Assembly (NCBI RefSeq): GCF_004006665.1
Contig: NZ_QOCL01000013.1
Location: forward strand, 62,001 to 126,000
Length of the DNA stretch: 64,000 nucleotides
Direction of reading: 5' to 3'
Origin: Halobacteriovorax sp. HLS
GTDB taxonomy: Bacteria; Bdellovibrionota; Bacteriovoracia; Bacteriovoracales; Bacteriovoracaceae
Under the pieces are notes generated by a model. It saw only the letters and a program-made list of their open reading frames with translations, did not search any database and was not told where the DNA came from. Within the stretch, counting starts at the first letter, position 1. Every line of letters starts with the position of its first letter. Position numbers and translations under genes: made by a program. This document shows, piece after piece, positions 56 to 14,210 of this stretch.

Positions 56-1252
56 TTATACTCTTTTAACTGATAGGGCAATTCCTTGGCCGACACCAAT
101 ACACATCGTCGCAAGACCTTGTTTTAATTTAGGATTCTTCTTCATTTGATGGGCCAAAGTCGTAAGGATACGAGCTCCTGAACAGCCTAGCGGATGTCCT
201 AGAGCGATTGCTCCACCGTTTAGATTAACTACAGATTCATCTATTTCAAGCTCTCTCATACATGCCAGTGCTTGTGCTGCAAAAGCTTCATTCAGTTCAA
301 CAATATCAAAGTCTGAAACTTTTAGGTTGAAGTCCTTACAAAGTTTTTTTGTGGCCTCTATAGGTCCAAGCCCCATGACATTCGGGTGAACACCTCTAAC
401 GGCAGCACCAGTAATTTCTACTATTGGTGTCAGGTTATGTTTTTTTAAGAACTCTTCTGAAACAACAACCACTGCGCTTGCTCCATCATTCATTGTCGAA
501 GCGTTTCCAGCTGTCACTGTTCCATCTTTTCTAAATACTGCTCTTAATTTAGAAAGCTGTTCTAGATTAGTGGAAGCACGCGGCCCTTCGTCAGTAGTAA
601 CCATGTGAGAGCTCTTTCTTAGTTTTACTTCAACAGGAAGTATCTCATCATCAAAGGCTCCATTTTCCATGGCCGCACATGCTTTCTTGTGAGAGTTGAG
701 TGCAAAGTTATCCTGATCAACTCTTGAGATTTTATATTGTTCAGCAACTTCTTCTGCTGTTTCTCCCATTCCGTAAAGGGGAAATAGTTCAGTCATTGCA
801 GGGTTTGGAAAACGCCAACCAAATGTAGTGTCATACATTTTAGAGTCTCTTCCAAACGCAGTGGAACCTTTAGAGATAACTAGAGGAGCTCTGGTCATAC
901 TCTCTGCACCACCAATAATGAAACAATCGCCAAAGCCTGCACTAATTCTTCCAACAGCATCCATTACTGCATCTAGAGAAGAACCACACAATCTATTAAT
1001 TGTTGTAGCAGGAACTTCATATGGAAAACCTGCGAGAACTGCGGCCATTCTCCCTAGATTTCTATTATCTTCACCAGCTTGATTTGCACAGCCTACGATA
1101 ACATCATCAATTTCTTTGAGATCAAAATTTGCCCAAGATTTAATATCTTTGAAAAGTCCAGCTAGCATATCATCGACTCTGACTTGTGAAAGCGAGCCAC
1201 CTATTTTTCCCATCGGAGTTCTCTTGGCATATACAAGATATGTTTTTTTCAT
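56..1252 (-). CDS. paaJ: Thiolase, 3-oxoadipyl-CoA/acetyl-CoA acyltransferase (PaaJ/PcaF type)
   Basis: This enzyme cleaves a 3-oxoacyl-CoA with CoA, the last step of beta-oxidation-type aromatic breakdown (3-oxoadipyl-CoA to succinyl-CoA and acetyl-CoA). The 398 residues match a full-length type I thiolase. The nucleophile is Cys89 in NRLCGSS, with the GHP histidine at about 353 and the second catalytic Cys at about 384 in CIGVG. The stretch GGAESMTRAP is typical of the PaaJ/PcaF branch. It is the last gene of the hpd-paa operon, 9 bases after the preceding stop. Acetoacetyl-CoA or other 3-oxoacyl-CoA thiolysis is also possible, and it could serve the liu/SCOT route encoded further right. 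The thiolase family is certain; the exact substrate is inferred from neighbours. Confidence 0.9.
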   Translation of the reverse strand: MKKTYLVYAKRTPMGKIGGSLSQVRVDDMLAGLFKDIKSWANFDLKEIDDVIVGCANQAGEDNRNLGRMAAVLAGFPYEVPATTINRLCGSSLDAVMDAVGRISAGFGDCFIIGGAESMTRAPLVISKGSTAFGRDSKMYDTTFGWRFPNPAMTELFPLYGMGETAEEVAEQYKISRVDQDNFALNSHKKACAAMENGAFDDEILPVEVKLRKSSHMVTTDEGPRASTNLEQLSKLRAVFRKDGTVTAGNASTMNDGASAVVVVSEEFLKKHNLTPIVEITGAAVRGVHPNVMGLGPIEATKKLCKDFNLKVSDFDIVELNEAFAAQALACMRELEIDESVVNLNGGAIALGHPLGCSGARILTTLAHQMKKNPKLKQGLATMCIGVGQGIALSVKRV

Positions 1253-1261
1253 TTTTAATTC

Positions 1262-1942
1262 CTATATTTTTGAAGCGGCAAGCCTAAGCTTGCTAGACGC
1301 TCTATATCTTTGATCTCTTGTCACATCATAAAGAGTATCAAGAAGCATTAGTATATTCTTTGCACCAATTGATTTTGCCCATTGAAAAGGTCCAAGCGGA
1401 TAATTCACTCCAAACTTCATGGCCGTATCAATGTCTTTTTCTTCTGCTAGACCATCTTCAAGGGAAAAGTAGGCTTCATTGATAACCATAGAAATAACTC
1501 TAGGGTAGGTGAACCCTATTCCTGCACTTTTAACTCTAATTGAATTGAGCCCTAAAAGTGAGTGAAATTCCTCTATGGCACTATTTGTTTCTTCATCAGC
1601 TGCAAAGTACTCATGAGTGTTCTTTGGTGATGGAAAAGAAAGAGAAATAGCTCCTTTTAATGTTTTTACTGTTTCAAAGAGTTGCTCTCCCCAATAGCAA
1701 GCAAGGTCACTTACAATAGGGCAGTCTGATTGAACTCTTAAATTCTTAAGTAGCGAGACCTTCTTTTCAATAGGCGTTAGTGAGAAGTCCATGATGTAGT
1801 CATAGTCACTATAATGTGAACGCTTGTCTTCAAATGGAGACTTATCTTCAATATCATAGAAAGACACATCAAGAGCTTTAAGTTGTTCATACATAGGGTG
1901 ATTCTTGGTCGCTAGAACAAGAAAATTTCTATTCGTAGTCAT
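1262..1942 (-). CDS. C-terminal half of a PaaH-type 3-hydroxyacyl-CoA dehydrogenase, as a separate gene
   Basis: The 226 residues correspond to the part that follows the first catalytic module in PaaH of E. coli: a degenerate N-terminal segment, then a second HCDH C-terminal domain with INEAYFSLEDG and DIDTAMKFGVNYPLGPF. There is no NAD-binding Rossmann motif, so it cannot act alone and probably completes the dimer or active site of the protein encoded just upstream. Its ATG at 1942 lies inside the end of that gene (14-base overlap, different frame) and has a strong ribosome site, AGGGAGGA, 5 bases ahead, so translation looks coupled. This is best read as gene fission of a PaaH-like protein. 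A sequencing frameshift is the alternative, but the well-placed ribosome site argues against it. Confidence 0.75.
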   Translation of the reverse strand: MTTNRNFLVLATKNHPMYEQLKALDVSFYDIEDKSPFEDKRSHYSDYDYIMDFSLTPIEKKVSLLKNLRVQSDCPIVSDLACYWGEQLFETVKTLKGAISLSFPSPKNTHEYFAADEETNSAIEEFHSLLGLNSIRVKSAGIGFTYPRVISMVINEAYFSLEDGLAEEKDIDTAMKFGVNYPLGPFQWAKSIGAKNILMLLDTLYDVTRDQRYRASSKLRLAASKI

Positions 1943-2792
1943 AGAATCCTCCCTTTACTTTCTTACCAATTCGTCCACTATCGACCATCTGTTTCTGAAG
2001 AAGGTGAGGTGCGAATCTTGGATCATTGTAAAAACTATTCCAAACAGACTGTGTTACAGAGTAATTAATATCAATGCCAATTAAGTCCATCAGCTCGAAC
2101 GGTCCCATTCTAAAACCACCACACTCTTTAAGGATTGTATCTACTTCTGTGATCCTTTCTTTATCGTAGTGTGAAACTACGCGCATGGCCTCTCCGTAGA
2201 AATTTCTTGCAACTCTATTAACAATAAAGCCTGGAGAATCATTACAAATGGCAACTTCTTTGGAATGCTCTTTGAACCATTGTTCAAAAAAGGTAATTAT
2301 TTGTGGATTAGTCCAATGCCCCTTTATAACTTCAACCAATTTCATAATTGGCGCAGGGTTAAAGAAGTGTAGTCCTAAGAATTTCTCTTTTCTAGCAGAT
2401 GATAATTCCTTTGCAAGACTAGAAATTGGAATAGAACTAGTGTTGGAAGATAGAATTGTATCTTCATGGCACAAGTCATCTAGCTTTTTAAAAACGGAAG
2501 TTTTAATTTCTAGATTCTCTATAATCGCTTCGACTACAAGTGAGACGTCTTTATTAAAACTTTCCCAAGTCGAAGCGCTTAGATTTGATTTAAAGGATAA
2601 GACTTCTTCTTGAGAAAACTTTCCTTTTGCTTGAAGCTTTTCCCATGAAGAATTGACGCTTTTTATCGCATCATGAGTAACTTCTGAATTTCCATCTAAG
2701 AGTTCAACTTTAAGTCCTTGTTGAACGAACCATTGGGCGATTCCTCGCCCCATAGTTCCAGCCCCTATAACAAGAACTGACTTTATTTGCAT
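1929..2792 (-). CDS. paaH: 3-hydroxyacyl-CoA dehydrogenase, NAD-binding and first C-terminal domain (PaaH-like)
   Basis: It oxidises a 3-hydroxyacyl-CoA to the 3-oxoacyl-CoA with NAD (in the phenylacetate route, 3-hydroxyadipyl-CoA to 3-oxoadipyl-CoA). The 287 residues are the usual length of a stand-alone HAD. The Rossmann motif GAGTMGRGIA starts at residue 10, SSNTSS lies near 116, and the catalytic His142 sits in LHFFNP. The C-terminal domain contains GFIVNRVARNFYGEA and GPFELMDLIG. The final residues (GGFYDYE) match the point where PaaH continues into its second C-terminal domain, which here is the next gene. The stop codon of paaA is directly upstream of no gap: the two genes abut (2792/2793). 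Dehydrogenase function is clear; the PaaH assignment rests on operon context. Confidence 0.88.
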   Translation of the reverse strand: MQIKSVLVIGAGTMGRGIAQWFVQQGLKVELLDGNSEVTHDAIKSVNSSWEKLQAKGKFSQEEVLSFKSNLSASTWESFNKDVSLVVEAIIENLEIKTSVFKKLDDLCHEDTILSSNTSSIPISSLAKELSSARKEKFLGLHFFNPAPIMKLVEVIKGHWTNPQIITFFEQWFKEHSKEVAICNDSPGFIVNRVARNFYGEAMRVVSHYDKERITEVDTILKECGGFRMGPFELMDLIGIDINYSVTQSVWNSFYNDPRFAPHLLQKQMVDSGRIGKKVKGGFYDYE

Positions 2793-3617
2793 TTATGAGT
2801 CTCTTTTTGGCTGATCTTCTTCTTTATATTCTGGAACAACAAGACCAAATTTTGCACAAAGCTCGTGAATTTCTTTTACGAATACATCTCTAACCTCAGC
2901 GTTTGTTCTTGCCTTTAATCCAAGGTTTACATAAAGATCATTAGTTCTACCCTTAGTTGAACCAAAAACATTCATCACTCTTGGCCACCAGATATTTAAT
3001 CTTTCTTGTAAGAATGCCTTATCTTCTTCGCTTCTAAGAGCAAGAATTTTTACCCACTTATCACCGTGAGTTAAGTGCATAACTTCTTCTTTATAAATTC
3101 CTTCAATTCCCTTTTTCCAAGGAAGGTAGCTTGACTTAAGTGTATCTTCTAGTTGGTGACCTGCTGCTCTGTCCATTAGGAAGTTAAAGAGAATGAAGTC
3201 AGTCCAGTGCTTAATATTATAGTAGAAGATATTTACTCTATAATCGTCTTTGAGTCTTTTGAATCCAATATTGATATCGTCTTCTTCTAGCTTATAACCA
3301 AGATCAACTTTTTCAATGTGACTTGAAGGATCTTCTCCTAAGTCTTCTAGAAGCTTATAAATAACACTTGCGTGTCTCATTTCATCTTTTACAATTTGAG
3401 CAACAATTACTTTCTCTTGCAGAGTAGGGGCTTTTTCAATCCATGGTGCATAACCAAGAGAACCTGAATACTCAGAGTCTCCTTGCATCCATAGAAGGTT
3501 CTTTAGGTGCTTCTTGTAAAACTCTGGTAACTCTTCACCTTTGTCAAAAGTTTTCCCATTTTTAATGTCAGCAAATAATGCTTTTTGTTCTTCTGTGTAC
3601 TCTCTAGCTGTAGTCAT
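2793..3617 (-). CDS. PaaA-like di-iron oxygenase (phenylacetyl-CoA epoxidase catalytic subunit family)
   Basis: PaaA is the catalytic subunit of the ring 1,2-phenylacetyl-CoA epoxidase. All six di-iron ligands can be aligned with E. coli PaaA: Glu49, Glu79 and His82 (DEMRH), Asp140 (HWTD), Glu178 and His181 (KEEVMH). APTLQEKVI and WWPRVMNVFG also match family blocks. At 274 residues it is shorter than E. coli PaaA (309), losing C-terminal sequence. I start it at 3617 (MTTAREY) because AAGGAAAT lies just upstream, overlapping the stop of paaG; an in-frame ATG at 3662 would lie within paaG. The multicomponent partners PaaB, PaaC, PaaD and the reductase PaaE are missing from the operon and the window. 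The substrate may therefore be phenylacetyl-CoA or another aryl-CoA. Family placement is firm, reaction uncertain. Confidence 0.82.
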   Translation of the reverse strand: MTTAREYTEEQKALFADIKNGKTFDKGEELPEFYKKHLKNLLWMQGDSEYSGSLGYAPWIEKAPTLQEKVIVAQIVKDEMRHASVIYKLLEDLGEDPSSHIEKVDLGYKLEEDDINIGFKRLKDDYRVNIFYYNIKHWTDFILFNFLMDRAAGHQLEDTLKSSYLPWKKGIEGIYKEEVMHLTHGDKWVKILALRSEEDKAFLQERLNIWWPRVMNVFGSTKGRTNDLYVNLGLKARTNAEVRDVFVKEIHELCAKFGLVVPEYKEEDQPKRDS

Positions 3618-3618
3618 A

Positions 3619-4407
3619 TTAATTTCCTTTGAAGTTTGGTTTTCTTTTTTCAAAAAATGCATTTAGACCTTCTTTGTAATCATTTGAGTTACCAAGAAAT
3701 CTTTGCACGTATGTTTCATTATTTAAACTATCTATAAATGTATTATCAGCTGCATATTGTAAGTTGGTCTTGATCAGCTCAACGCACTTTGGGGCCATTT
3801 CATTTATTTTTTCACAGGCCTCTAGAGCTTCAATGAATGGGTCTTCGCAAACTTCGTTAACAAGTCCCACCTCTTTAAGCTGCTCGCTCGTAAGAGCTTC
3901 GTTAAAGAGAAAGAATTCCAGTGCTTTCTTTGCTCCTAGTGCCGCTAGGAAAGTATTAGAACTTCCTGCATCTGGAGCAAGTCCTAGTTTAGAAAATCCT
4001 GAAATAAATTTGGCGCCACTTTTAGCGTAAATTAAGTCACATGCTAAAGCCACTGATAGTCCTGCACCGGCACTTACGCCATTAATTGCACCAACAACAA
4101 TTTTCTTAGATGATCTAATACTTTGTACTAAAGGATTCCACTCGGTTTCAAGTGTATTTCCTAAATCAACAGGAGCTTCTCCCGCTTGTACACTTCTATC
4201 GTTGAGATCTTGACCTGTACAAAAGGCCTTGCCTTTAGCGGTGAGAACGATTGATTTTACTTCATCGTTCTTATTAGCTTCTCGAATGGCCTTAACAATT
4301 TCAAGTTTAGCTTGAGTGTTTAGAGCATTATAAACCTCTTCACGATTTATTGTGATTACTCTTGTTTGATCCTTCAAATCAATTTCAATATATTGATAAT
4401 CGCTCAT
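3619..4407 (-). CDS. paaG: Crotonase, 1,2-epoxyphenylacetyl-CoA isomerase (PaaG)
   Basis: PaaG isomerises the ring epoxide of phenylacetyl-CoA to the oxepin form, and also shifts double bonds in later intermediates. The 262-residue protein has the full crotonase fold. FCTGQDLNDR near residue 63 is a signature shared with E. coli PaaG (FCAGQDLNDR). FSKLGLAPDAGSS carries Asp146, matching the catalytic Asp of PaaG in place of the second Glu of true hydratases. SAGAGLSVALACD forms the oxyanion-hole region. The C-terminus (EGLNAFFEKRKPNFKGN) is typical of crotonases. It lies between paaF and paaA, 1-2 bases from each, which fits an epoxidase-isomerase pair. Confidence 0.88.
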   Translation of the reverse strand: MSDYQYIEIDLKDQTRVITINREEVYNALNTQAKLEIVKAIREANKNDEVKSIVLTAKGKAFCTGQDLNDRSVQAGEAPVDLGNTLETEWNPLVQSIRSSKKIVVGAINGVSAGAGLSVALACDLIYAKSGAKFISGFSKLGLAPDAGSSNTFLAALGAKKALEFFLFNEALTSEQLKEVGLVNEVCEDPFIEALEACEKINEMAPKCVELIKTNLQYAADNTFIDSLNNETYVQRFLGNSNDYKEGLNAFFEKRKPNFKGN

Positions 4408-4408
4408 C

Positions 4409-5188
4409 TTAGTTTCCTTTATACTCAGGAGATCTTTTTTCTAGAAATGCGTTCATTCCTTCTTTTTGATCATGCGAGGCAAATGTTAAATAGAAGTTTC
4501 TTCTCTCATATTCTAGAGCGTCCCATAGTCCCATATCCTGAGACTTATTAACTGAATCTTTTACAAGTCTAGAAGCGACAGGGGATTTGTCAGCAATTTT
4601 CTTGGCCAATTCAAATGTCTCTTGTAAAAGAGTCGTTGCAGGAACAACCTTTGCGACGATACCCCAGTCATAAGCTGTTTGAGCATCTATCATTTCGCCT
4701 GTGAGGGCCATGAGCATTGATTTACTTTTACCAGCTGCCTTAGTCAGCCTCGCTGTTCCCCCTGCTCCTGGAACTGTTCCAATATTTATTTCTGGCTGTC
4801 CAAATTTTGCTTTATGACCAGCAATTGTAATATCACAGGCCATCGCAAGCTCATGACCTGCTCCAAGAGCAAACCCATTAACTGCTGCGATTATTGGCTT
4901 ACTTATGAGCGAAAACCTTCGCCATAACTTCATTCTAGAGTCGTTGAGCTGGTCAATTGCACCGGCATCAACCATCTTTTGAATGTCGGCGCCCGCCGCA
5001 AAGGCCCTTTCATCACCAGTAATAATTATCACTCTTACTTCTGGTAGAGACTCTAGTCTTTCAAGTTCAGTAATCACTTGGCCTAAAAGCTCTGTTGTTA
5101 TGGCATTTAAAACCTTTGGTCTATTGAGTTGTAAAGTGGCAACTCTCATATCATTTTGAAAAGGGTGGGTGCAGATAAGTTCATTCAT
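4409..5188 (-). CDS. paaF: Enoyl-CoA hydratase (PaaF type)
   Basis: It adds water across a 2,3-enoyl-CoA; in phenylacetate breakdown PaaF hydrates 2,3-dehydroadipyl-CoA. The protein is 259 residues, normal for a crotonase. Both catalytic glutamates of a true hydratase are present: Glu113 in GAGHELAMACD and Glu133 in FGQPEINIG, followed by PGAGGTARL. AFAAGADIQKM forms the CoA-binding loop. It overlaps the stop of hpd by one base and precedes paaG by one base, so it is co-transcribed. A general short-chain hydratase role is equally possible; the PaaF name is based on context. Confidence 0.87.
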   Translation of the reverse strand: MNELICTHPFQNDMRVATLQLNRPKVLNAITTELLGQVITELERLESLPEVRVIIITGDERAFAAGADIQKMVDAGAIDQLNDSRMKLWRRFSLISKPIIAAVNGFALGAGHELAMACDITIAGHKAKFGQPEINIGTVPGAGGTARLTKAAGKSKSMLMALTGEMIDAQTAYDWGIVAKVVPATTLLQETFELAKKIADKSPVASRLVKDSVNKSQDMGLWDALEYERRNFYLTFASHDQKEGMNAFLEKRSPEYKGN

Positions 5189-6267
5189 TACTTTAAGTAT
5201 CCTCTTTTCACTTGATCTCTTTCAATTGAATCAAAAAGGGCCTGAAAGTTTCCTTCTCCGAAACCGTCGTTCTTCTTTCTTTGAATGAATTCAAAAAATA
5301 ACGGACCTACATAAGTTTGCGTGAAGTTTTGAATGAGATATCCATCAGCATCACCATCAACTAATAGTTTGGCCTTTTCTAACTCATCAATATTCTCTTC
5401 AACATTTATCCCGCGCTCAGGAATCATTTCATAATATGTGTGAGGTATATCCAAGAATTGAATTCCTCTTTCAATTAGCTCAGGAACAGTATCGAGAATT
5501 TTTCCACAAGTTAGAGCTATATGCTGTACTCCAGGACCTTTGTGGAGATCTAAGAATTCTTGAATTTGTGATTTACCATTTTCAATCTCAGGCTCATTAA
5601 TTGGAATAATAACAGCATTATTTTCTAGCTGAACTACTTTTGAGTTTAGTCCCGTTTTTTCACCCTTAATATCAAAGTATCTCGTTTCAGAAAAACCATA
5701 AACATCCTTATAGAATTTAACCCACTTTTCCATCTCGCCTTTAGGGACGTTATTTGTAAGGTGATCAATTCTTGCAACACGGCTATTAAGTGGCGTTGCT
5801 TCTGGATCATTCTCTAGTTTTGTATAACCTGGTCTAAAGTGTGGACGTGGTCTTTGAACAAATTCGTTTAGGACATCTCCAAAACCTTTTATGGCAGCAG
5901 TGAAGTATTCTCCTTGTTCACATACTTGTTTACTAAGAGGTCTAACGAGTTCGGCGCCTCTTTCAATTGCTGTATTGATTGCATGTTCACAGTCTTCAAC
6001 CAGAAAAGACATTGTTGAAACACCTTCTCCATGCGCTTTATAGTATTGAGCAGAGTGGGAGTCTTCATTCTTGTCAGCGACAAGTAGAAAGCGAACTTGA
6101 CCCTGAGAAAATAGCTCAGAGTTTAATTCTTTATTTTCGTATGTTCTTACAAAACCAAATTTTTTAAACAATTCTTTTGTAGGTGTATTAAGAGACTCAC
6201 AAGTGAACTCTAAATGATCCACGGCTATGATTCCAAGTGGGTTCTTATCGTTTATTACGCTAGACAC
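5188..6267 (-). CDS. hpd: 4-hydroxyphenylpyruvate dioxygenase
   Basis: This Fe(II) enzyme converts 4-hydroxyphenylpyruvate, from tyrosine, to homogentisate with loss of CO2. The 359 residues form two vicinal-oxygen-chelate domains. The iron ligands are His169 (RIDHLTN), His249 (GVQHIAL) and Glu326 (LFFEFIQRK), and the C-terminal GFGEGNFQALFDSIERDQ is diagnostic of HPPD. The start is GTG at 6267, preceded by GAGGTG four bases upstream; a nearby ATG at 6269 is out of frame. It is the first gene of the operon, divergent from the aryl-pyruvate oxidoreductase gene. Homogentisate dioxygenase, isomerase and fumarylacetoacetase are not in this window. Confidence 0.95.
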   Translation of the reverse strand: MSSVINDKNPLGIIAVDHLEFTCESLNTPTKELFKKFGFVRTYENKELNSELFSQGQVRFLLVADKNEDSHSAQYYKAHGEGVSTMSFLVEDCEHAINTAIERGAELVRPLSKQVCEQGEYFTAAIKGFGDVLNEFVQRPRPHFRPGYTKLENDPEATPLNSRVARIDHLTNNVPKGEMEKWVKFYKDVYGFSETRYFDIKGEKTGLNSKVVQLENNAVIIPINEPEIENGKSQIQEFLDLHKGPGVQHIALTCGKILDTVPELIERGIQFLDIPHTYYEMIPERGINVEENIDELEKAKLLVDGDADGYLIQNFTQTYVGPLFFEFIQRKKNDGFGEGNFQALFDSIERDQVKRGYLK

Positions 6268-6558: not shown

Positions 6559-9500
6559 ATGAGCATTGAAATACTTAATGGAAATGAACTTATTGTTCAA
6601 GGTGGACTTGAGGCAGGTTTTAATCTTTATACAGGTTATCCTGGATCTCCTTTGGCCGATTACTTCAATATTCTTTATAAGAGAAAAGATGAATTTCAGG
6701 CCAAAGGAATTCGTGTTGCTATTGCAAACTCTGAGGCCAATGCCGCAGCTATGGCCTCTGGAGCTAAACAGGCCGGAAGAGATTGTCTTGTTGCTATGAA
6801 ATCCATGGGGCTACATGTTGCCTCTGATGCACTTTCTGTCGGAAATTTCGCTAACCCTGGCGCTACGACTATTGATGAACAAACTGGTGAAGAGATTTTT
6901 CCTGGAGTTGTTATCGCCGTTGGTGATGATCCTTGGTCTATGTCTACCTCGACACCTGCTGACTCTCGTTACTTATATAAGCACTTACATATTCCTTTTC
7001 TTGAACCTTCAACCCCTCAAGAGTTAAAAGACTGGATGGCACTTGCTCTACAAATCTCAAAGAGAACATCAGTTTATCAAGGCCTTCTGTTGACTACATA
7101 TATGGCAGAAGGTGGAGGTAGAGTAGAAGTTAAAGAACATAAAGTTGTTGATGGAAGTATCAAAACACTTGATCCATCTACTTTTGATTTATCGAAGAAT
7201 GTGATGGTTCCACCTAATTCACTTAAGGCCGATGTCTCTATGATTGAAGAGCGGTTTCCTAAAGTGGTAAAGGTTTTGAATGAATTAAAGCTAGACCAGA
7301 TTCTTGGAAATAGTGAATCGAAAATAGGTTTTATTTCAACTGGCGTTGTTTATGAAACTCTCAAGCAAGTCTTAGAGGAAGGATCACTCTTAGGTCATTT
7401 TAGTTTATATAAAATTGCCTGTTCTTATCCTTTGGCCGACGCTCAGCTTTTAGACTACCTAAAAGGGCTCGATACACTTGTTGTTGTTGAAGAAAAAAGA
7501 GGTTTTTTAGAGAATGAGTTAAAATCATTTTGTTCTACTCACGATATAAAGTTAAAATTCTTTGGAAAAGAGTTCTCTTCTGCTGAAGGATTTCCTTCTC
7601 ATGGGGGACTGAGTTATGAAATAGTTCTCTCAAAAGTAAAAGAACTTCTAGGTGTATTCAAGTTAGATCTATGTTCAGATTTAAAACACGAATTTTCAAA
7701 CCTTGATATGGACTTGCCAAGAAGACTTCCTACTTTCTGTCCAGGCTGTCCTCACAGGGAAACACTTTCTCTATTAAAAGATTTGAGAAGCGTTCTTAAA
7801 GATCAAGAAGGTTTAAACTTACTCTCTCATGGAGATGTGGGTTGTTACTCCCTATCTTTTCTTCCTCCTTTTAAAGAAATGCATAACCTCTCGGCCATGG
7901 GGCAAGGTGGTGCTCTAGGAGCTGGTGTAGATATATTCTCCGATAATCCATCTGTTGTATTAATGGGAGATTCAACATTCTTTCATTCGGGATTAACTGA
8001 TATCTCCAACTCTTTACAACTTGGTCATAATATAACGTATATACTTTTAGATAATGATAATACTGCAATGACCGGTCATCAAATGACTCCAGCATCAGGA
8101 ATTTCTGTTGAAGGAATTAAAAGACCACGTCAAAATATGTTATCTGTAGTTCAAGGTTTAGGTGTTACTCAATCATTTGAAGTTAATCCAAGTGATCGCT
8201 ACTTTTATAAAAATCTTCTCTTAGATATCGTTCATAGAGAAGGAGTTAAAGTTATAGTTTCTAATAAAGAATGTGGCCTGACCTTTCATGGAAGACAAAA
8301 GTCTATTGATAGAAAAACTTTTGCTTCTAATAAAACTGTTGCAAAAAAAGAGTTTTATCAAATAAATACTTCTGTCTGCGAAGACTGTAGAGAGTGTGTT
8401 GAAAATACTGGGTGTCCAGGACTGACTCAGATCCATGGGGCCTATGGAACAAAGGTTGCTATTGATCCTCAAATTTGTGTCGCCGATAGTTACTGTACTA
8501 AGATTAAAGCTTGTCCAAGCTTTGAGCTTGTTGAAGTTTCGGACTATCATCCTACAAAGTACAAAGATTCTAAGAAAATTAGTGTGAATCTTGATTCAAT
8601 TGAACTTCCAAAACCTTTAAAGTCTTTTGAAGATATAGCTAACGGTCGCGACTGGAGAATGGTTGTGACTGGAGTAGGTGGAAGTGGTGTGACTACAATC
8701 TCTAGAGTTGTATCCTATGCTGCTGTTGAGATGAATGGTCGCGATGATTTAGATTTTAAATTTATGGACCAAAAGGGATTGGCCCAACGTAACGGTAACG
8801 TCACTGGGCACTTAACAATTTTTAAGAAAGGACAGTCCCGTGGTGCAGTTACGCCACTTGGTACTGCAGATCTTCTCGTCTCTCCAGACTTACTAGATGC
8901 TAGTGGGCAACTCCAATTTTTAGGAGAGAACTCTTTAGCAATTATTGATAAGAATTTTCAAATACCTCTTTCAATTCTTTTAGATGACGGCGTAAATAAG
9001 CCAACTTTGACTGAGACACAGCTAAGAGCGGAGCTATCAAATACTCTGGGTGATAGAGTCACATTATCTGCTATGAAAAGCCTGTGTAATGATCTTCTAG
9101 GAAAGAGTGTGTATGCTTCGGCAATGATTCTTGGAGTGGCGTTTCAAAGTGGAGCTCTCCCGTTTACTTTTGAAAATATGAAAAAGGCCTTTAGCGAAAC
9201 AATTCGAAAAGAAGAGCTTGAGGCCAATTGGCAGGCATTCAATTTAGGTCGTAAAGTCTATCTTCATGGAGATCAATCTGTGAGAGATCAATACTTTAAG
9301 AAATCGGCCTCTATTAACGAAGTTGCTTTACTCAAAAAGAGTATTTTAGAATCTTTTTGTTCATGGCAAAAGAAAGACTTTTTTGTAGAGCTCTTTGAAA
9401 ATTCACATAAGAAATTGTCTACGTTATTTCCTAATATTAAGAATACGCACTTGGCCCACTATTTACATGATCAATATATTTATAATCGTGGTGTAAATAT

Positions 9501-9975
9501 TCAAGACTTCTTGATGGAGGCCAGAAAAATTACTGAATTTCTAGCTGAAGACCTTTGGCCTTTGGCCCTTAGAACTCTAGCGAAAACATACTGGGTTAAA
9601 GACGAGGTCTTTGTTTCGCATCAAATGATATCTCCGCTACAAAAAAGTCTTGATGATCTTGCTTATGGTAAATTAGGTAAGCGTTACAAGAAAACTTTTA
9701 TAAATAGACCTGGTTTTGATATTTTTGGGAAAACTATTGAATTTGATATTTCTCCTAAACCTTGGATGCTTAGAACCATGAGGCATTTTAGGCTTCTACG
9801 TTTTATTCTTCCGGCCTGGCATAGAAAAGAACGTAAGATCAATCAAGAGATTAGAGCTAAGTTAAATGAAATATATAATTTAGAACAATCACAGCAATAT
9901 AGTGCTCTGAAGAGATTAGAAAATATTAAAGGCTATAGAGAAGTACTTTACAAGAAAGCTGAGCTAGTTCTGTGA
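6559..9975 (+). CDS. Single-chain indolepyruvate:ferredoxin oxidoreductase (IorA-IorB fusion)
   Basis: The enzyme oxidatively decarboxylates aryl-pyruvates (indolepyruvate, phenylpyruvate, 4-hydroxyphenylpyruvate) to aryl-acetyl-CoA, passing electrons to ferredoxin. Domains in order: pyrimidine-binding domain with TGYPGSPLADY (about 20-30); thiamine diphosphate domain with CPGCPHRE near 395 and GDSTFFHSG at 470 followed by DNDNTAMTGHQ; an iron-sulfur segment with Cys607, 610, 613 and 619 and a second looser Cys group near 640-652; and the gamma domain from about 700 with GVGGSGVTT and GLAQRNGNVTGH. The 1138 residues agree with the single-chain proteobacterial form; the roughly 250 C-terminal residues are family-specific. 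The next gene overlaps by 4 bases (GTGA), indicating coupling. Divergence from hpd places two enzymes that compete for aryl-pyruvates on one control region. Confidence 0.93.
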   Translation: MSIEILNGNELIVQGGLEAGFNLYTGYPGSPLADYFNILYKRKDEFQAKGIRVAIANSEANAAAMASGAKQAGRDCLVAMKSMGLHVASDALSVGNFANPGATTIDEQTGEEIFPGVVIAVGDDPWSMSTSTPADSRYLYKHLHIPFLEPSTPQELKDWMALALQISKRTSVYQGLLLTTYMAEGGGRVEVKEHKVVDGSIKTLDPSTFDLSKNVMVPPNSLKADVSMIEERFPKVVKVLNELKLDQILGNSESKIGFISTGVVYETLKQVLEEGSLLGHFSLYKIACSYPLADAQLLDYLKGLDTLVVVEEKRGFLENELKSFCSTHDIKLKFFGKEFSSAEGFPSHGGLSYEIVLSKVKELLGVFKLDLCSDLKHEFSNLDMDLPRRLPTFCPGCPHRETLSLLKDLRSVLKDQEGLNLLSHGDVGCYSLSFLPPFKEMHNLSAMGQGGALGAGVDIFSDNPSVVLMGDSTFFHSGLTDISNSLQLGHNITYILLDNDNTAMTGHQMTPASGISVEGIKRPRQNMLSVVQGLGVTQSFEVNPSDRYFYKNLLLDIVHREGVKVIVSNKECGLTFHGRQKSIDRKTFASNKTVAKKEFYQINTSVCEDCRECVENTGCPGLTQIHGAYGTKVAIDPQICVADSYCTKIKACPSFELVEVSDYHPTKYKDSKKISVNLDSIELPKPLKSFEDIANGRDWRMVVTGVGGSGVTTISRVVSYAAVEMNGRDDLDFKFMDQKGLAQRNGNVTGHLTIFKKGQSRGAVTPLGTADLLVSPDLLDASGQLQFLGENSLAIIDKNFQIPLSILLDDGVNKPTLTETQLRAELSNTLGDRVTLSAMKSLCNDLLGKSVYASAMILGVAFQSGALPFTFENMKKAFSETIRKEELEANWQAFNLGRKVYLHGDQSVRDQYFKKSASINEVALLKKSILESFCSWQKKDFFVELFENSHKKLSTLFPNIKNTHLAHYLHDQYIYNRGVNIQDFLMEARKITEFLAEDLWPLALRTLAKTYWVKDEVFVSHQMISPLQKSLDDLAYGKLGKRYKKTFINRPGFDIFGKTIEFDISPKPWMLRTMRHFRLLRFILPAWHRKERKINQEIRAKLNEIYNLEQSQQYSALKRLENIKGYREVLYKKAELVL

Positions 9976-11300
9976 GAGAGTCGGTTAGTGCAATATTCGT
10001 CTTTGAAGATGAAGTCTTTTCAATTCAGAGACAGAATTACTTATCCGTATTCCCTGGATATTGTGCTTTTCCTGGGGGAAAGGTCGATAAAGAAGACTCT
10101 AATGTAGCATTAGTTTCCCATGATCTTTTTGCAGATAAAGAAAGTTATCAACTAAATGCTCTGTTTAGAGAAGTAAGTGAAGAGCTTAATTTTGATGTAC
10201 TAGCTAATTTAAATCGTATTGTTTCCATTGATATGATCGGTATTGCGATTACTCCTGAGTTTAATCCATATCGATTTAAAAACTTTTACTTTAGAATAAC
10301 TCTTAATGAGAAAGTATCATTTGTTGTTGATGAAGGAGAGGCAAAGAGTGCAAGGTGGTCAAAGGCACATGAACTTTTAGAGAGATATGAAAGAGCTGAG
10401 ATTTTGGCCGTACCTCCTGCCGTAAAGCTTTTTAAGGCCCTTGATAGAGATATACAATTTTCTCACTCTATTGATTTGTCCCTTGAACATGATCCAGCAA
10501 CTGAAACGCCTATGATTGAAAGTCTCTACGGTGTTAAGCAGTTCTTGCCATTGTCTCATACATTTCCACCTGCAAATAGAACGAATTGCTTTTTAATAGG
10601 GGATAAACACTCTGTCTTAATTGATCCGTCTCCAAAAGATGAAATTGAATTAGCTAAATTGAAGAATCACTTATCTAAGTTTCAGGTTAACGAGATTTTC
10701 CTAACTCATCATCATCCTGATCATCATGAACATAGTGTTGAATTAGCAAAGTTTTACGATGTTAAAATTGGTCTAAGCTTAGATACACATACTAGAATTC
10801 TCAGTAAACACGGCCAAGACTACTTTCAGAATTTAGAGCTTAACTACTATAAAGAAGGAGATATTCTTACTCAATCTCTCGGTCAAGATGTTCTAGTTTA
10901 TGAAGTTCCAGGACATGATGAAGGTCAACTTGCATTGGCACCAAGAAATCTGAACTGGTTTATAGTAGGAGATCTTATCCAATCAGTTGGTACTGTTGTT
11001 ATTGGTGCCCCTGAAGGTGATATGAGTAAGTACTTTAACAGTTTAGAAAAAGTTATTAAACTTGCTCCAAGATTTGTTATTCCTTCTCATGGTATAGCTT
11101 TAGGTGGAGTTCATAAATTAAAGATGACGTTAAAGCACCGAAAGATGCGCGAAGAAAAGATTCGCTCTTTACTAGAGCACTCACATACAAATGAAGAAAT
11201 TCTTGATATCATTTATGAAGGGCTAGATAAGAGACTAACACCATATGCTCTTAAAACTATTGAGGCCCATATAGTTAAAATTAAGTCAGAATTAACCTAA
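9972..11300 (+). CDS. Nudix hydrolase / metallo-beta-lactamase fusion protein
   Basis: The N-terminal half resembles the NUDT7/NUDT19-like Nudix group, many of which cleave CoA or acyl-CoA: FPGGKV at 33-38 and REVSEEL at 66-72, with a longer insert than the standard Nudix box. The C-terminal half is a metallo-beta-lactamase fold hydrolase of the LACTB2/glyoxalase II type: THHHPDHH at 245-252 supplies the HxHxDH metal ligands, then GHDEGQLAL near 317 and GDLIQSVG near 338, with IPSHG near 375. The start is GTG, overlapping the stop of the oxidoreductase gene as GTGA. The pairing of a possible CoA-pyrophosphatase with a possible thioesterase beside an aryl-acetyl-CoA producer suggests acyl-CoA housekeeping. 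This role is inference; the two domain families are clear. Confidence 0.85.
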   Translation: MRESVSAIFVFEDEVFSIQRQNYLSVFPGYCAFPGGKVDKEDSNVALVSHDLFADKESYQLNALFREVSEELNFDVLANLNRIVSIDMIGIAITPEFNPYRFKNFYFRITLNEKVSFVVDEGEAKSARWSKAHELLERYERAEILAVPPAVKLFKALDRDIQFSHSIDLSLEHDPATETPMIESLYGVKQFLPLSHTFPPANRTNCFLIGDKHSVLIDPSPKDEIELAKLKNHLSKFQVNEIFLTHHHPDHHEHSVELAKFYDVKIGLSLDTHTRILSKHGQDYFQNLELNYYKEGDILTQSLGQDVLVYEVPGHDEGQLALAPRNLNWFIVGDLIQSVGTVVIGAPEGDMSKYFNSLEKVIKLAPRFVIPSHGIALGGVHKLKMTLKHRKMREEKIRSLLEHSHTNEEILDIIYEGLDKRLTPYALKTIEAHIVKIKSELT

Positions 11301-11354: not shown

Positions 11355-14210
11355 ATGAAAATGCTCTTTTGTCTAACATTACTCACAGTCTCCTTAAACT
11401 CTTTTGCGTTTAAGTTACCAAAACTCGATCAGCAAGAACTCAATATTCATCATATAAGGATGATTAAGAATGCGTTTATTGATTTTTCAAAAGATATTGA
11501 AAAAAATAATTCGTATGAAGAGTCTAGTTTTGTTCAAGTTCAGAATTTCTTTTTGACCGTGGCCTATGCTGAAGATGGAAAGTGTTTCTTTGGTGGATGG
11601 CCTAGTCGTATGCAAGGAGAGATTTGTAAAGCACCTTGGTCTCATGGAGATGATTCTTGGGCATCTAATATTCAATGTATTGATCCTCAAAGCTCCAAGA
11701 GCGCAAGCTGTAATGAAGTCGTGAACTATAGATACAGCACTTGTGGTTCAAGAGGGAAGTTTAGATGTAACCCTCTGCTCTTTGGCTCAGATGCAAACGG
11801 AGATGGAAAGTGTGTTGAAACTAATGGAACTTATAAAAAATTAACTCAGAAATGTGTTGATCAAACCAAAGGGTCGCCAGAGCTTAGAGAAGGAGAGAAA
11901 TTCCTTAAAGATAATCCTAAGCTCTTAGAGGAATACAAAAATAGTGTTGAAAGATTTTGTATCGAAACACATAGGGAAGATCCAGAGTATGATCATAATA
12001 AAACTTGTGACGCTCTAAGAGAGAGACTTTCAGATATTGTTGGAACTGCTAAGAAAGACTTGGCCGAAACAGTTGAAGGTGAAGAAGCTTCTGTTGTATA
12101 TGTCAACAAAGCACTCGGAATTTTAGATAAGTGTCAAAAAGATTATAGCGCTTCAAAAGATGGAGCAATTTCGAAGTTTTTCTCAAGCAGAAGAAACTCC
12201 TTAAGTCAGATGGTGGATTATGGTAAATGCTCTCTTGAGGAAGTTGATACTTCAATCACAACAGAGGAGTTAGATAGACTTGTGTCTGACTTTGATGATG
12301 TCTCAAAAGAAACTTTTCCAAAAGAAATTCTACAAGACTCTGTTAACACTGGAGTCGAGCTAACACTTAAGAACTTAATGTTTACAATGGATCAGTTTGG
12401 TGAAGATATAAACTTAGAAAAAGTTCTAAAGAAGTATCCATATCTTAACAAGAGTCCATATAAACAAAGAGTTAATTCTTCTATAGCAGATTTTAAAAAA
12501 GCAAAGAAGTCTGGTGCTCTTGATAAAACAAAGATTAATAAATCAGAGATTGTGAAAAATTTAAATCATTTCTCAGATAGGATAAACTCTCTTTGTCAGA
12601 GAATAAATACAGAGTACACAAAGCGTATAAAATCAAGAGATTCGAGTAAGAAAATAAAAAGTGGTATGTTCATGAATTCTGAGTCTGAGCAGAACTATTA
12701 TGACCAAACGCAAGTTGAAATGACTGCAATGTATCAAGATTTTCTAGACTCTGATCAAATGAATATATCCAGACTTATGGCAACAGACCATTTTAAAAGT
12801 GATATTTTTCCTTTTAGTAGTGGCCTATCTGAAAAATGTGCTGAGGGTGATATAGATAATATCGCCTTTACTCCAGTAGGAGAGGAAGATATCTCTGAAG
12901 CGATGGAAGATTATAAAGAGTTAATGTTAGATGAACTAGATGACTATGACTCGATGGCAAAAGTTAGAAAATATGGTGACGTTGAAGATGGTATTCATGA
13001 ATTGATTAAGTATAGACCATATTTACTTGGTAATACTTTAAAGAAGAATAGGAATAATCCAGATTTACAAAATATTTATGCAAGCTATCTTTGTAAAGAA
13101 TCTTTGGACGTCTATTCTAGTGACGAGCTTTGGAGAATTGGTGAAGTTACAGCTGGCGGTGTAGGACTTGTTGTCTCAGGGGCCTTGATGGCCACAGGAA
13201 TTGGTTCTCCTCTAGGAGTTGGTCTTGCTGCAGCTTCTGGTACCTTAGTTGCTGCTGAAGGGGCGATGGCCGTTTCAAGTTATGTTGATGCTGATCAAGC
13301 TGCTGATGCTTCTAGTGCGAGTTTTGCGACTGAATCTATATCTATGGATCAACATATTTCAAATAATGATTCTGCCGATAGAAAAAAGACTGAGGCCCTA
13401 GTTACTGGTGGAGTTGCACTGATACAGCCTCTTGCATTTCTTTCTAAATCAGCTAAAACGGCTCGAACCGGACTACAAGTTGCAAAGGTCTCAGATGAAG
13501 GTTCTACTACGGTTAAAGCAGCTGCATATGCTTCTGATGACGTACTACGTTTAACAGATGAAAGTCGCGCAGGGACTTCTGTAGTTAAGACCGCTTCTAG
13601 AGCTACAACTAAACCAAAGAAGTCAACACGACTAAGCAGACGTAAAGAACAAAAGGCCAGGGCCAAGGCAAGAGCACAAGAAAAGGCACAGGCTAAAGCT
13701 AAAGCAGATGCTGATATGAAGGCGAAAGCTCAAGCAAAGGCCAAAGCAGAAGCTGATATGAAGGCGAAGGCGCAAGCAAAGGCCAAAGCGGATGCTGATA
13801 TGAAGGCAAAGGCCCAAGCTAAAGCTAAAGCGGATGCAGATATGAAAGCTAAGGCAAAGGCCGATGCTAAGGCAAAAGCTCAGGCAAGATCAAGTGCTAG
13901 CTCTTCTGGAGAGTATAAAACAAAGAAAGATTTTGCGAACTTTATTCAAAAAGAGTTTGAGACGGTCAAAACTTTACCAAGTGAAGCTGTAAAGGGAAGA
14001 ACTTTTAGATCAATTGAAGGTGTTAAGAATGTTATGAAAGCAATTACTGGTAAAGATTATTCTAAATTTACAAAACAAGAGCTTAGAAAAGAAATTAAAA
14101 GACTTTCAACTATATTCCATCCTGATAAGTATCATGGGAAGAATGATTTCTTTGTTAACTCTGTTAAAGATGAGATGACTATAGTTAATGCTCTAAAAGA
14201 CGCACTTTAG
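11355..14210 (+). CDS. Large secreted protein with Lys/Ala repeat and C-terminal J-domain
   Basis: The 951-residue product begins with a signal peptide (MKMLFCLTLLTVSLNSFA). Residues 20-590 are Cys-containing and mostly polar, without a domain I recognise. A Gly/Ala-rich hydrophobic stretch at about 596-640 could enter a membrane. Residues about 756-846 are a Lys/Ala/Asp repeat, 14 residues per unit. The last 65 residues look like a J-domain: ELRKEIKRLSTIFHPDKYHG has the HPD motif at 922-924 placed after a basic helix, followed by a short third helix. J-domains stimulate Hsp70 proteins, so an exported one is odd: either it works on the periplasmic side, or it is delivered elsewhere. The next gene, also secreted, starts 8 bases later. 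J-domain call is fairly firm; overall role unknown. Confidence 0.8.
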   Translation: MKMLFCLTLLTVSLNSFAFKLPKLDQQELNIHHIRMIKNAFIDFSKDIEKNNSYEESSFVQVQNFFLTVAYAEDGKCFFGGWPSRMQGEICKAPWSHGDDSWASNIQCIDPQSSKSASCNEVVNYRYSTCGSRGKFRCNPLLFGSDANGDGKCVETNGTYKKLTQKCVDQTKGSPELREGEKFLKDNPKLLEEYKNSVERFCIETHREDPEYDHNKTCDALRERLSDIVGTAKKDLAETVEGEEASVVYVNKALGILDKCQKDYSASKDGAISKFFSSRRNSLSQMVDYGKCSLEEVDTSITTEELDRLVSDFDDVSKETFPKEILQDSVNTGVELTLKNLMFTMDQFGEDINLEKVLKKYPYLNKSPYKQRVNSSIADFKKAKKSGALDKTKINKSEIVKNLNHFSDRINSLCQRINTEYTKRIKSRDSSKKIKSGMFMNSESEQNYYDQTQVEMTAMYQDFLDSDQMNISRLMATDHFKSDIFPFSSGLSEKCAEGDIDNIAFTPVGEEDISEAMEDYKELMLDELDDYDSMAKVRKYGDVEDGIHELIKYRPYLLGNTLKKNRNNPDLQNIYASYLCKESLDVYSSDELWRIGEVTAGGVGLVVSGALMATGIGSPLGVGLAAASGTLVAAEGAMAVSSYVDADQAADASSASFATESISMDQHISNNDSADRKKTEALVTGGVALIQPLAFLSKSAKTARTGLQVAKVSDEGSTTVKAAAYASDDVLRLTDESRAGTSVVKTASRATTKPKKSTRLSRRKEQKARAKARAQEKAQAKAKADADMKAKAQAKAKAEADMKAKAQAKAKADADMKAKAQAKAKADADMKAKAKADAKAKAQARSSASSSGEYKTKKDFANFIQKEFETVKTLPSEAVKGRTFRSIEGVKNVMKAITGKDYSKFTKQELRKEIKRLSTIFHPDKYHGKNDFFVNSVKDEMTIVNALKDAL
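13704..13871 (+). repeat. 42-bp tandem repeat encoding a Lys/Ala/Asp 14-mer
   Basis: The sequence GATATGAA recurs with its ATG at 13716, 13758, 13800 and 13842, exactly 42 bases apart. The encoded unit reads roughly ADMKAKAQAKAKAD and should form a highly charged continuous helix. Copies differ mainly at third codon positions (GCT, GCA, GCG, GCC), so the array is not a very recent duplication. Confidence 0.85.

Follow-up and report, generated by a model that had tools for sequence, protein, structure and literature searches.

A PaaA-like di-iron protein encoded without PaaB, PaaC and PaaE in a Paa-type operon of Halobacteriovorax

Results

A Paa-type operon with a single PaaA-like gene

The window analysed here is a stretch of 64,000 nucleotides from Halobacteriovorax sp. 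HLS (contig NZ_QOCL01000013.1, positions 62,001 to 126,000). A minus-strand operon at positions 56-6267 encodes, in order, a 4-hydroxyphenylpyruvate dioxygenase (HPPD; 5188..6267, GTG start), a PaaF-type enoyl-CoA hydratase (4409..5188), a PaaG-type crotonase (3619..4407), a PaaA-like di-iron protein (2793..3617), the N-terminal part of the 3-hydroxyacyl-CoA dehydrogenase PaaH (1929..2792, 287 aa), a 226-aa protein corresponding to the second half of PaaH (1262..1942) and a PaaJ/PcaF-type thiolase (56..1252). HPPD scored 367 bits with TIGR01263 (cut-off 277). The best models for the others were the 2,3-dehydroadipyl-CoA hydratase model for PaaF (296 bits, cut-off 371), TIGR02280 for PaaG (203 bits, cut-off 345) and the 3-oxoadipyl-CoA thiolase models for the thiolase (528 bits, cut-off 605). 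The 226-aa protein matches the C-terminal part of long PaaH models (PRK08268 388-495), and together with the N-terminal part it apparently represents a split PaaH. PaaH is thus made of two overlapping genes at 1262-2792, and loci L055 and L142 instead have one 486-aa ORF there.

The PaaA-like ORF encodes 274 aa from an ATG at 3617; an alternative longer ORF of 289 aa starts at 3662 and overlaps paaG. The preliminary description had placed the gene between paaG and paaH, and the order PaaF-PaaG-PaaA-like-PaaH-HAD2-thiolase agrees with this. No PaaK (phenylacetate-CoA ligase) was found within the operon. Divergent from it lies a fused indolepyruvate:ferredoxin-oxidoreductase-type enzyme (IOR; 6559..9975, plus strand, 1138 aa), a candidate source of arylacetyl-CoA, whose divergent placement is kept in most of the relatives' loci fetched. 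Further along the window, a NUDIX domain fused to a metallo-beta-lactamase fold domain (9972-11300) follows the IOR gene in many relatives as well. A predicted secreted protein of 951 aa with a repetitive KAKAQAKADADM-type tract is encoded at 11355-14210, and its C-terminal HPDK motif looks J domain-like by eye.

The PaaA-like protein keeps the di-iron ligands and forms its own clade

The PaaA-like protein matched PF05138 with 133.5 bits (cut-off 28.5). It scored 116.4 bits with the PaaA model TIGR02156, where the NCBIfam equivalog cut-off of 280 was not reached, 65 bits with the PaaC model (cut-off 133) and 29.8 bits with the BoxB model TIGR03225, again short of the cut-off (499). All six carboxylate and histidine ligands of the di-iron centre, claimed in the preliminary description, were borne out by alignment: E49, E79, H82, D140, E178 and H181 correspond to E120, E150, H153, D211, E240 and H243 of BoxB, whose ligand and substrate-binding Gln116 positions were taken from the available text of PMC5489048. 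The first five are invariant in 34/34 rows, and H181 is kept in 33/34. The exception is L105 of the G030 lineage, in which R replaces H181; in L105 and in L038 (G030) an extra ORF between the PaaA-like gene and PaaH breaks the operon, and the gene of this lineage is perhaps a decaying copy.

The AlphaFold model (pLDDT 91.9, pTM 0.88) was closest to PaaA among solved folds (Z 27.1, rmsd 2.5, 249 aligned), followed by SSO1313 (Z 25.2), PaaC (Z 23.0) and BoxB (Z 22.1). Positions around the active site differ between the PaaA-like protein and PaaA in the alignment. Position 45, which matches BoxB Gln116, is Q in 32 of the 34 rows, where E. coli PaaA has H, and the protein lacks PaaA's C-terminal ~55 residues. 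We also compared the lysine bridge (K68/E49/E72/D126 in E. coli PaaA numbering), which the review PMC4498308, in the part available, describes as proposed for electron transfer. K68 is replaced by I or M and E49 by Y in 34/34 rows, indicating by alignment that the bridge of E. coli PaaA is lost in this family.

A tree was built from 65 rows of PaaA, PaaC and PaaA-like proteins, in which the Thermus row L080_10586 was counted as PaaC by gene order and the Thermus row L080_8989 was left ungrouped. The 24 PaaA-like rows grouped in one clade (100/99) that excludes canonical PaaA and PaaC and lies on the PaaA side of the split between them, although branches were long and the deep joins are unsure. 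The PaaC rows were long branches, that of Thermus the longest. The gene therefore lies outside canonical PaaA, and judged by its sequence the family is a variant of the PaaA/BoxB kind beyond the PaaA of PaaABCE. Against three congeners its dN/dS was 0.06-0.08, a rough value as dS exceeded 1, which puts the gene under purifying selection.

No partner subunits are encoded in the genome

The absence of PaaB, PaaC and PaaE, stated earlier for the operon and the window, was then examined in the whole genome (G000; 3.84 Mb in 16 contigs, 99.98% complete), and it holds there too. PF05138 matched one single place, the PaaA-like gene itself, and G000 therefore has no PaaC; no PaaB was found, and no PaaE over the cut-off. 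The best PaaE matches below it were a 413-aa protein (29 bits) and a 123-aa protein (G000:C16:114971; 23 bits), the latter matching the ferredoxin part of the model. No BoxB was found in G000 besides the weak match to the PaaA-like gene. The genes of the operon are tightly packed, and in the window genus no additional conserved ORF adjoins this one. The search for paaZ was successful: a full-length, bifunctional PaaZ of 679 aa is encoded outside the window, at C3:188108-190135 (L192 7900-9939), and scored 954 bits with TIGR02278, above the cut-off of 562.8. The surrounding stretch that was fetched gave no match to any other Paa gene.

The partner-free gene is a trait of one bacterial family

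Among 368 genomes of the phylum, PF05138 matched in 74, all within the window's family. The divergent PaaA-like copy accounts for 68 of these, with 107-141 bits and all in one family. Of the remaining six, one has a 19.5-bit fragment and five belong to genus g43, where four genomes have canonical PaaA+PaaC and the fifth is cut by a contig end. PaaB was found in 4/75 genomes searched, namely those g43 genomes with canonical PaaA+PaaC, so that canonical PaaA+PaaC+PaaB is confined to this one genus among the 368; PaaE exceeded its cut-off in 1/37 genomes. These results showed that a divergent PaaA-like copy without canonical partners is a lineage trait, and the first observation of a partner-less gene thus holds and reaches beyond the window, to the entire genome and to a bacterial family.

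Homologues in a named collection likewise came mostly from Bacteriovoracaceae/Halobacteriovorax (Bdellovibrionota), and a second collection supplied 61 Bacteriovoracales loci, largely from the same organisms and so not independent of the 368-genome set. Where the flank is long enough, the PaaA-like gene has PaaG immediately upstream in 58/59 loci and PaaH immediately downstream in 51/56. The thiolase was present in 37/40 loci and HPPD in 38 of the 45 that extend 7.5 kb or more upstream, while an EthD-family gene was found in 29/45 and an aldehyde dehydrogenase (ALDH) in 28/40.

Homologues also occur elsewhere. Bacillota/Actinomycetota MAGs have them with 45-51% identity (L141 3160-3921, L143 8001-8774, L144 8001-8774, L174 and L175); these stand apart from paa genes, and their genomes also carry canonical PaaA+PaaC; the one in L141, the sole one whose neighbours were checked by HMM, adjoins 2-oxoacid dehydrogenase E2, LipA and LipB. 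The homologue in L110 lies away from paa genes too. G050 and G107 carry, in addition, a second, deeper PaaA-like type (L043 9589-10371 and L049 9458-10330) with 26-28% identity to the window protein, which in G107 directly follows an HPPD gene.

Some relatives keep the operon and lack the gene

PF05138 matched nowhere in four genomes, namely G044 of the window's genus, G037, G038 and G001. Their loci (L183-L186) keep IOR, PaaG, PaaH, the 226-aa protein and the thiolase in place, with PaaG adjoining PaaH; PaaF is kept in the operons of G044, G037 and G038 and not in that of G001. Because these genomes retain the operon, and G044 also PaaZ, the operon can persist without a PaaA-like epoxidase. 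Either ring epoxidation was lost in them, or an unrelated oxygenase takes part, or the operon has another substrate. BoxB was considered as a hidden oxygenase of such operons and rejected, since none exceeded the cut-off in 16 genomes. G115 likewise has the operon without the PaaA-like gene, but its genome encodes canonical PaaABC.

PaaZ alternates with EthD and an aldehyde dehydrogenase

In other genera the operon carries the EthD-family gene upstream of PaaF and the ALDH gene after the thiolase (for example L041 7601-7912 and 13060-14550). The two co-occur: among 39 loci with enough flank, 26 have both, 10 neither and 3 only one. PaaZ and the operonic pair were mutually exclusive in 10/10 genomes tested, a small sample that is not independent, as five of the seven PaaZ genomes belong to one genus. 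PaaZ without the pair was found in G000, G043, G044, G045, G046, G050 and G115, and the pair without PaaZ in G004, G047 and G107; the congeners G047 and G050 show opposite states.

These results suggested that EthD and ALDH would take over both PaaZ activities, with EthD as the candidate ring-opening enzyme. Such a replacement fits with the paa cluster of Exiguobacterium RIT 594, for which the available text of PMC9416434 gives EthD and a separate ALDH. However, a simple replacement of PaaZ's hydrolase by EthD is weakened by a Gordonia rubripertincta plasmid, in which the EthD gene directly follows an intact paaZ, and by the annotated plasmid EthD matches of Deinococcus, Cupriavidus basilensis and Rhodococcus opacus, which sit outside paa clusters (contexts examined in 5/40 records with an EthD match; one Cupriavidus record was unannotated). 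According to the text available from PMC9007349, other bacteria are already known to combine an alternative oxepin-CoA hydrolase of the crotonase type with a separate ALDH. Among solved structures, BH0200 (2ftr, 4e-25) is closest to the EthD protein in sequence. EthD was also considered as a stand-in for PaaB and rejected, because the window genus has no EthD and because EthD tracks ALDH rather than the epoxidase.

HPPD is common and dissociates from the PaaA-like gene

HPPD is present in most relatives and is not tied to the PaaA-like gene. The PaaA-like operon occurs without any HPPD over the cut-off in G004, G005, G007, G010, G024 and G104, while HPPD occurs without a PaaA-like gene in G001, G002, G003, G018 and others. 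Since the two dissociate both ways, HPPD was rejected as an obligatory functional partner. A search for HgmA in 37 genomes gave one clear match (G120) and 11 weak HgmA_C matches of 20-26 bits; the latter, in G086, G097, G078 and others (L075-L077), are ORFs of 366-399 aa that are possibly divergent homogentisate dioxygenases.

Discussion

The most likely role of the PaaA-like protein is that of a ring epoxidase, though the protein failed several tests for the PaaA of PaaABCE. We lean, with modest confidence, towards the di-iron catalytic subunit of a ring 1,2-epoxidase for arylacetyl-CoA that does without PaaB and PaaC, in a BoxB-like organisation; its substrate, the epoxidation and its oligomeric state are what we infer from the gene, its relatives and its neighbours. 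2-oxoacid:ferredoxin oxidoreductases of the IOR type can form arylacetyl-CoA directly. In the proposed pathway phenylalanine would be converted to phenylpyruvate, and the divergent oxidoreductase would turn this directly into phenylacetyl-CoA, probably the substrate of the PaaA-like protein, so that no PaaK would be needed; because HPPD is not required, this enzyme is the best candidate for the thioester source. The PaaA-like protein would then epoxidise the ring of phenylacetyl-CoA with O2 and electrons from the product of an unlinked gene. PaaG would convert the ring epoxide to oxepin-CoA, PaaZ, encoded elsewhere in the genome, would open and oxidise it, and the thiolase, PaaF and the split PaaH would finish the route to acetyl-CoA and succinyl-CoA. 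Ferredoxin reduced by the divergent oxidoreductase, the donor suggested at first, is compatible with the data, though unsupported by them.

Several results bear on this reading. The PaaZ gene in G000 supports an epoxide/oxepin route, and G115, where canonical PaaABC accompanies the operon minus the PaaA-like gene, favours a partner-free epoxidase. The complete ligand set, the confidently modelled fold, the conserved place by PaaG and PaaH, the rarity of PaaB and PaaE in the genomes searched, the alternation of PaaZ with EthD+ALDH, the lost lysine bridge and the Gln116 equivalent also speak for it. The Bacillota/Actinomycetota homologues weaken it, because they sit outside paa loci in genomes with canonical PaaA+PaaC, and the lack of a dedicated reductase over the cut-off in the PaaE search of G000 counts against it, as does the dependence of canonical PaaA on PaaB, PaaC and PaaE (PMC4498308, in the part available). 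The preliminary description held that the local pathway expects an epoxide: the genomic PaaZ fits such a route, but the four operons in genomes without any PF05138 gene weaken this view. Neither of the findings that it named as refuting, a partner set elsewhere in the genome or a place within canonical PaaA, was obtained for PaaB, PaaC and PaaE and for the tree. Its interpretation as a minimal or differently partnered aryl-CoA epoxidase is thus partly supported. A wider scheme for Bacteriovoracaceae remains tentative, namely a ligase-free route in which a thioester made by IOR from arylpyruvate, a one-protein epoxidase in place of PaaABCE and, in part of the family, EthD with a stand-alone ALDH in place of PaaZ come together, with EthD as candidate oxepin-CoA hydrolase.

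The protein might also be a one-protein oxygenase whose substrate is a different CoA ester formed by the operon, such as 4-hydroxyphenylacetyl-CoA, indoleacetyl-CoA or a homogentisate-derived thioester. The HPPD gene in this operon and in most loci with sufficient upstream sequence would suit it, as would the second PaaA-like type beside HPPD in G107, the altered positions near the active site, and homogentisate that has no obvious exit, since canonical homogentisate dioxygenase occurs in 1/37 genomes and not in G000. We regard this as unlikely, given that HPPD and the PaaA-like gene occur without each other and that PaaZ, PaaG and the PaaJ-type thiolase fit a plain phenylacetyl-CoA route. Nor do we think it probable that the operon's beta-oxidation steps act on other acyl-CoAs while the PaaA-like protein, a dispensable accessory, carries out an oxidation of its own. 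The operons left intact without it, and homologues away from paa genes in L110 and in the MAGs, one of them beside 2-oxoacid dehydrogenase E2, LipA and LipB in L141, point in that direction; its position directly downstream of PaaG in nearly all loci, the canonical PaaABC of G115 and the presence of PaaZ or EthD+ALDH in 10/10 genomes tested point away from it.

That a normal multi-subunit epoxidase is present, with PaaB- and PaaC-like partners too diverged for the models, appears very improbable. Canonical PaaA requires PaaB, PaaC and PaaE for activity, as stated in the available part of PMC4498308, and PaaC is poorly conserved, as its long branches in the tree show. However, PF05138 detects PaaC over the cut-off in a distant phylum, yet finds one place in G000; no further ORF is conserved next to the gene in the window genus; and in other genera the neighbour of ~102 aa is an EthD protein rather than a PaaB and has no counterpart in the window genome.

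In the available text of two surveys, paaA lay in a paaABCDE operon in 25/25 cases (PMC2653477), and each of 825 proteomes with a phenylacetate-CoA ligase kept both PaaA and PaaC, which were put forward as markers (PMC13186573); as far as that text goes, both treat the two subunits as inseparable. A partner-free PaaA clade would break this marker rule and expose a pathway missed by ligase-based surveys. It would suggest a simpler way of breaking aromatic rings, and the protein would offer a minimal scaffold for examining the roles of PaaB, PaaC and the lysine bridge. The switch between PaaZ and EthD+ALDH makes the function of EthD directly testable. The protein family was not described in the literature covered on partnerless PaaA, on EthD with Paa and on Bacteriovorax with these pathways, with most subscription journals and preprints outside that coverage.

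Among known systems, two haloarchaeal and one Thermus plasmid PaaA seemed partnerless by name and were rejected, as each has a PaaC-type neighbour; the haloarchaeal ones also have a PaaB-family gene nearby. SSO1313 of Sulfolobus (PDB 4mud) likewise has a compact fold of the PaaA type (Z 25.2, rmsd 1.9) but only 22% identity. The Exiguobacterium RIT 594 cluster resembles the relatives' operons in its EthD and separate aldehyde dehydrogenase genes, but it has PaaA, PaaB and further oxygenase subunits (PMC9416434, available text). BoxB, the benzoyl-CoA 2,3-epoxidase, is a catalytic subunit without a structural subunit and so a precedent for this fold (PMC4498308, in the part available). The PaaA-like protein is like it in the QGDSE/QGDTE motif, in the Gln116 equivalent and, judging from genes alone, in having no PaaB or PaaC encoded in G000, and it differs in length (274 against ~475 aa), in its 30 bits against a cut-off of 499 and in its Paa-type neighbours. 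With the PaaA of PaaABCE it shares the fold, the six ligands, a place by PaaG, PaaF, PaaH and PaaJ and a PaaZ in the genome; it differs in the genome's lack of PaaB, PaaC and PaaE, in its score of 116 bits against a cut-off of 280, in the missing lysine bridge and C-terminal ~55 residues, and in its separate clade. Where E. coli attacks the phenylacetate ring with the four-protein PaaABCE, Bacteriovoracaceae have a single PaaA-like iron protein in that place.
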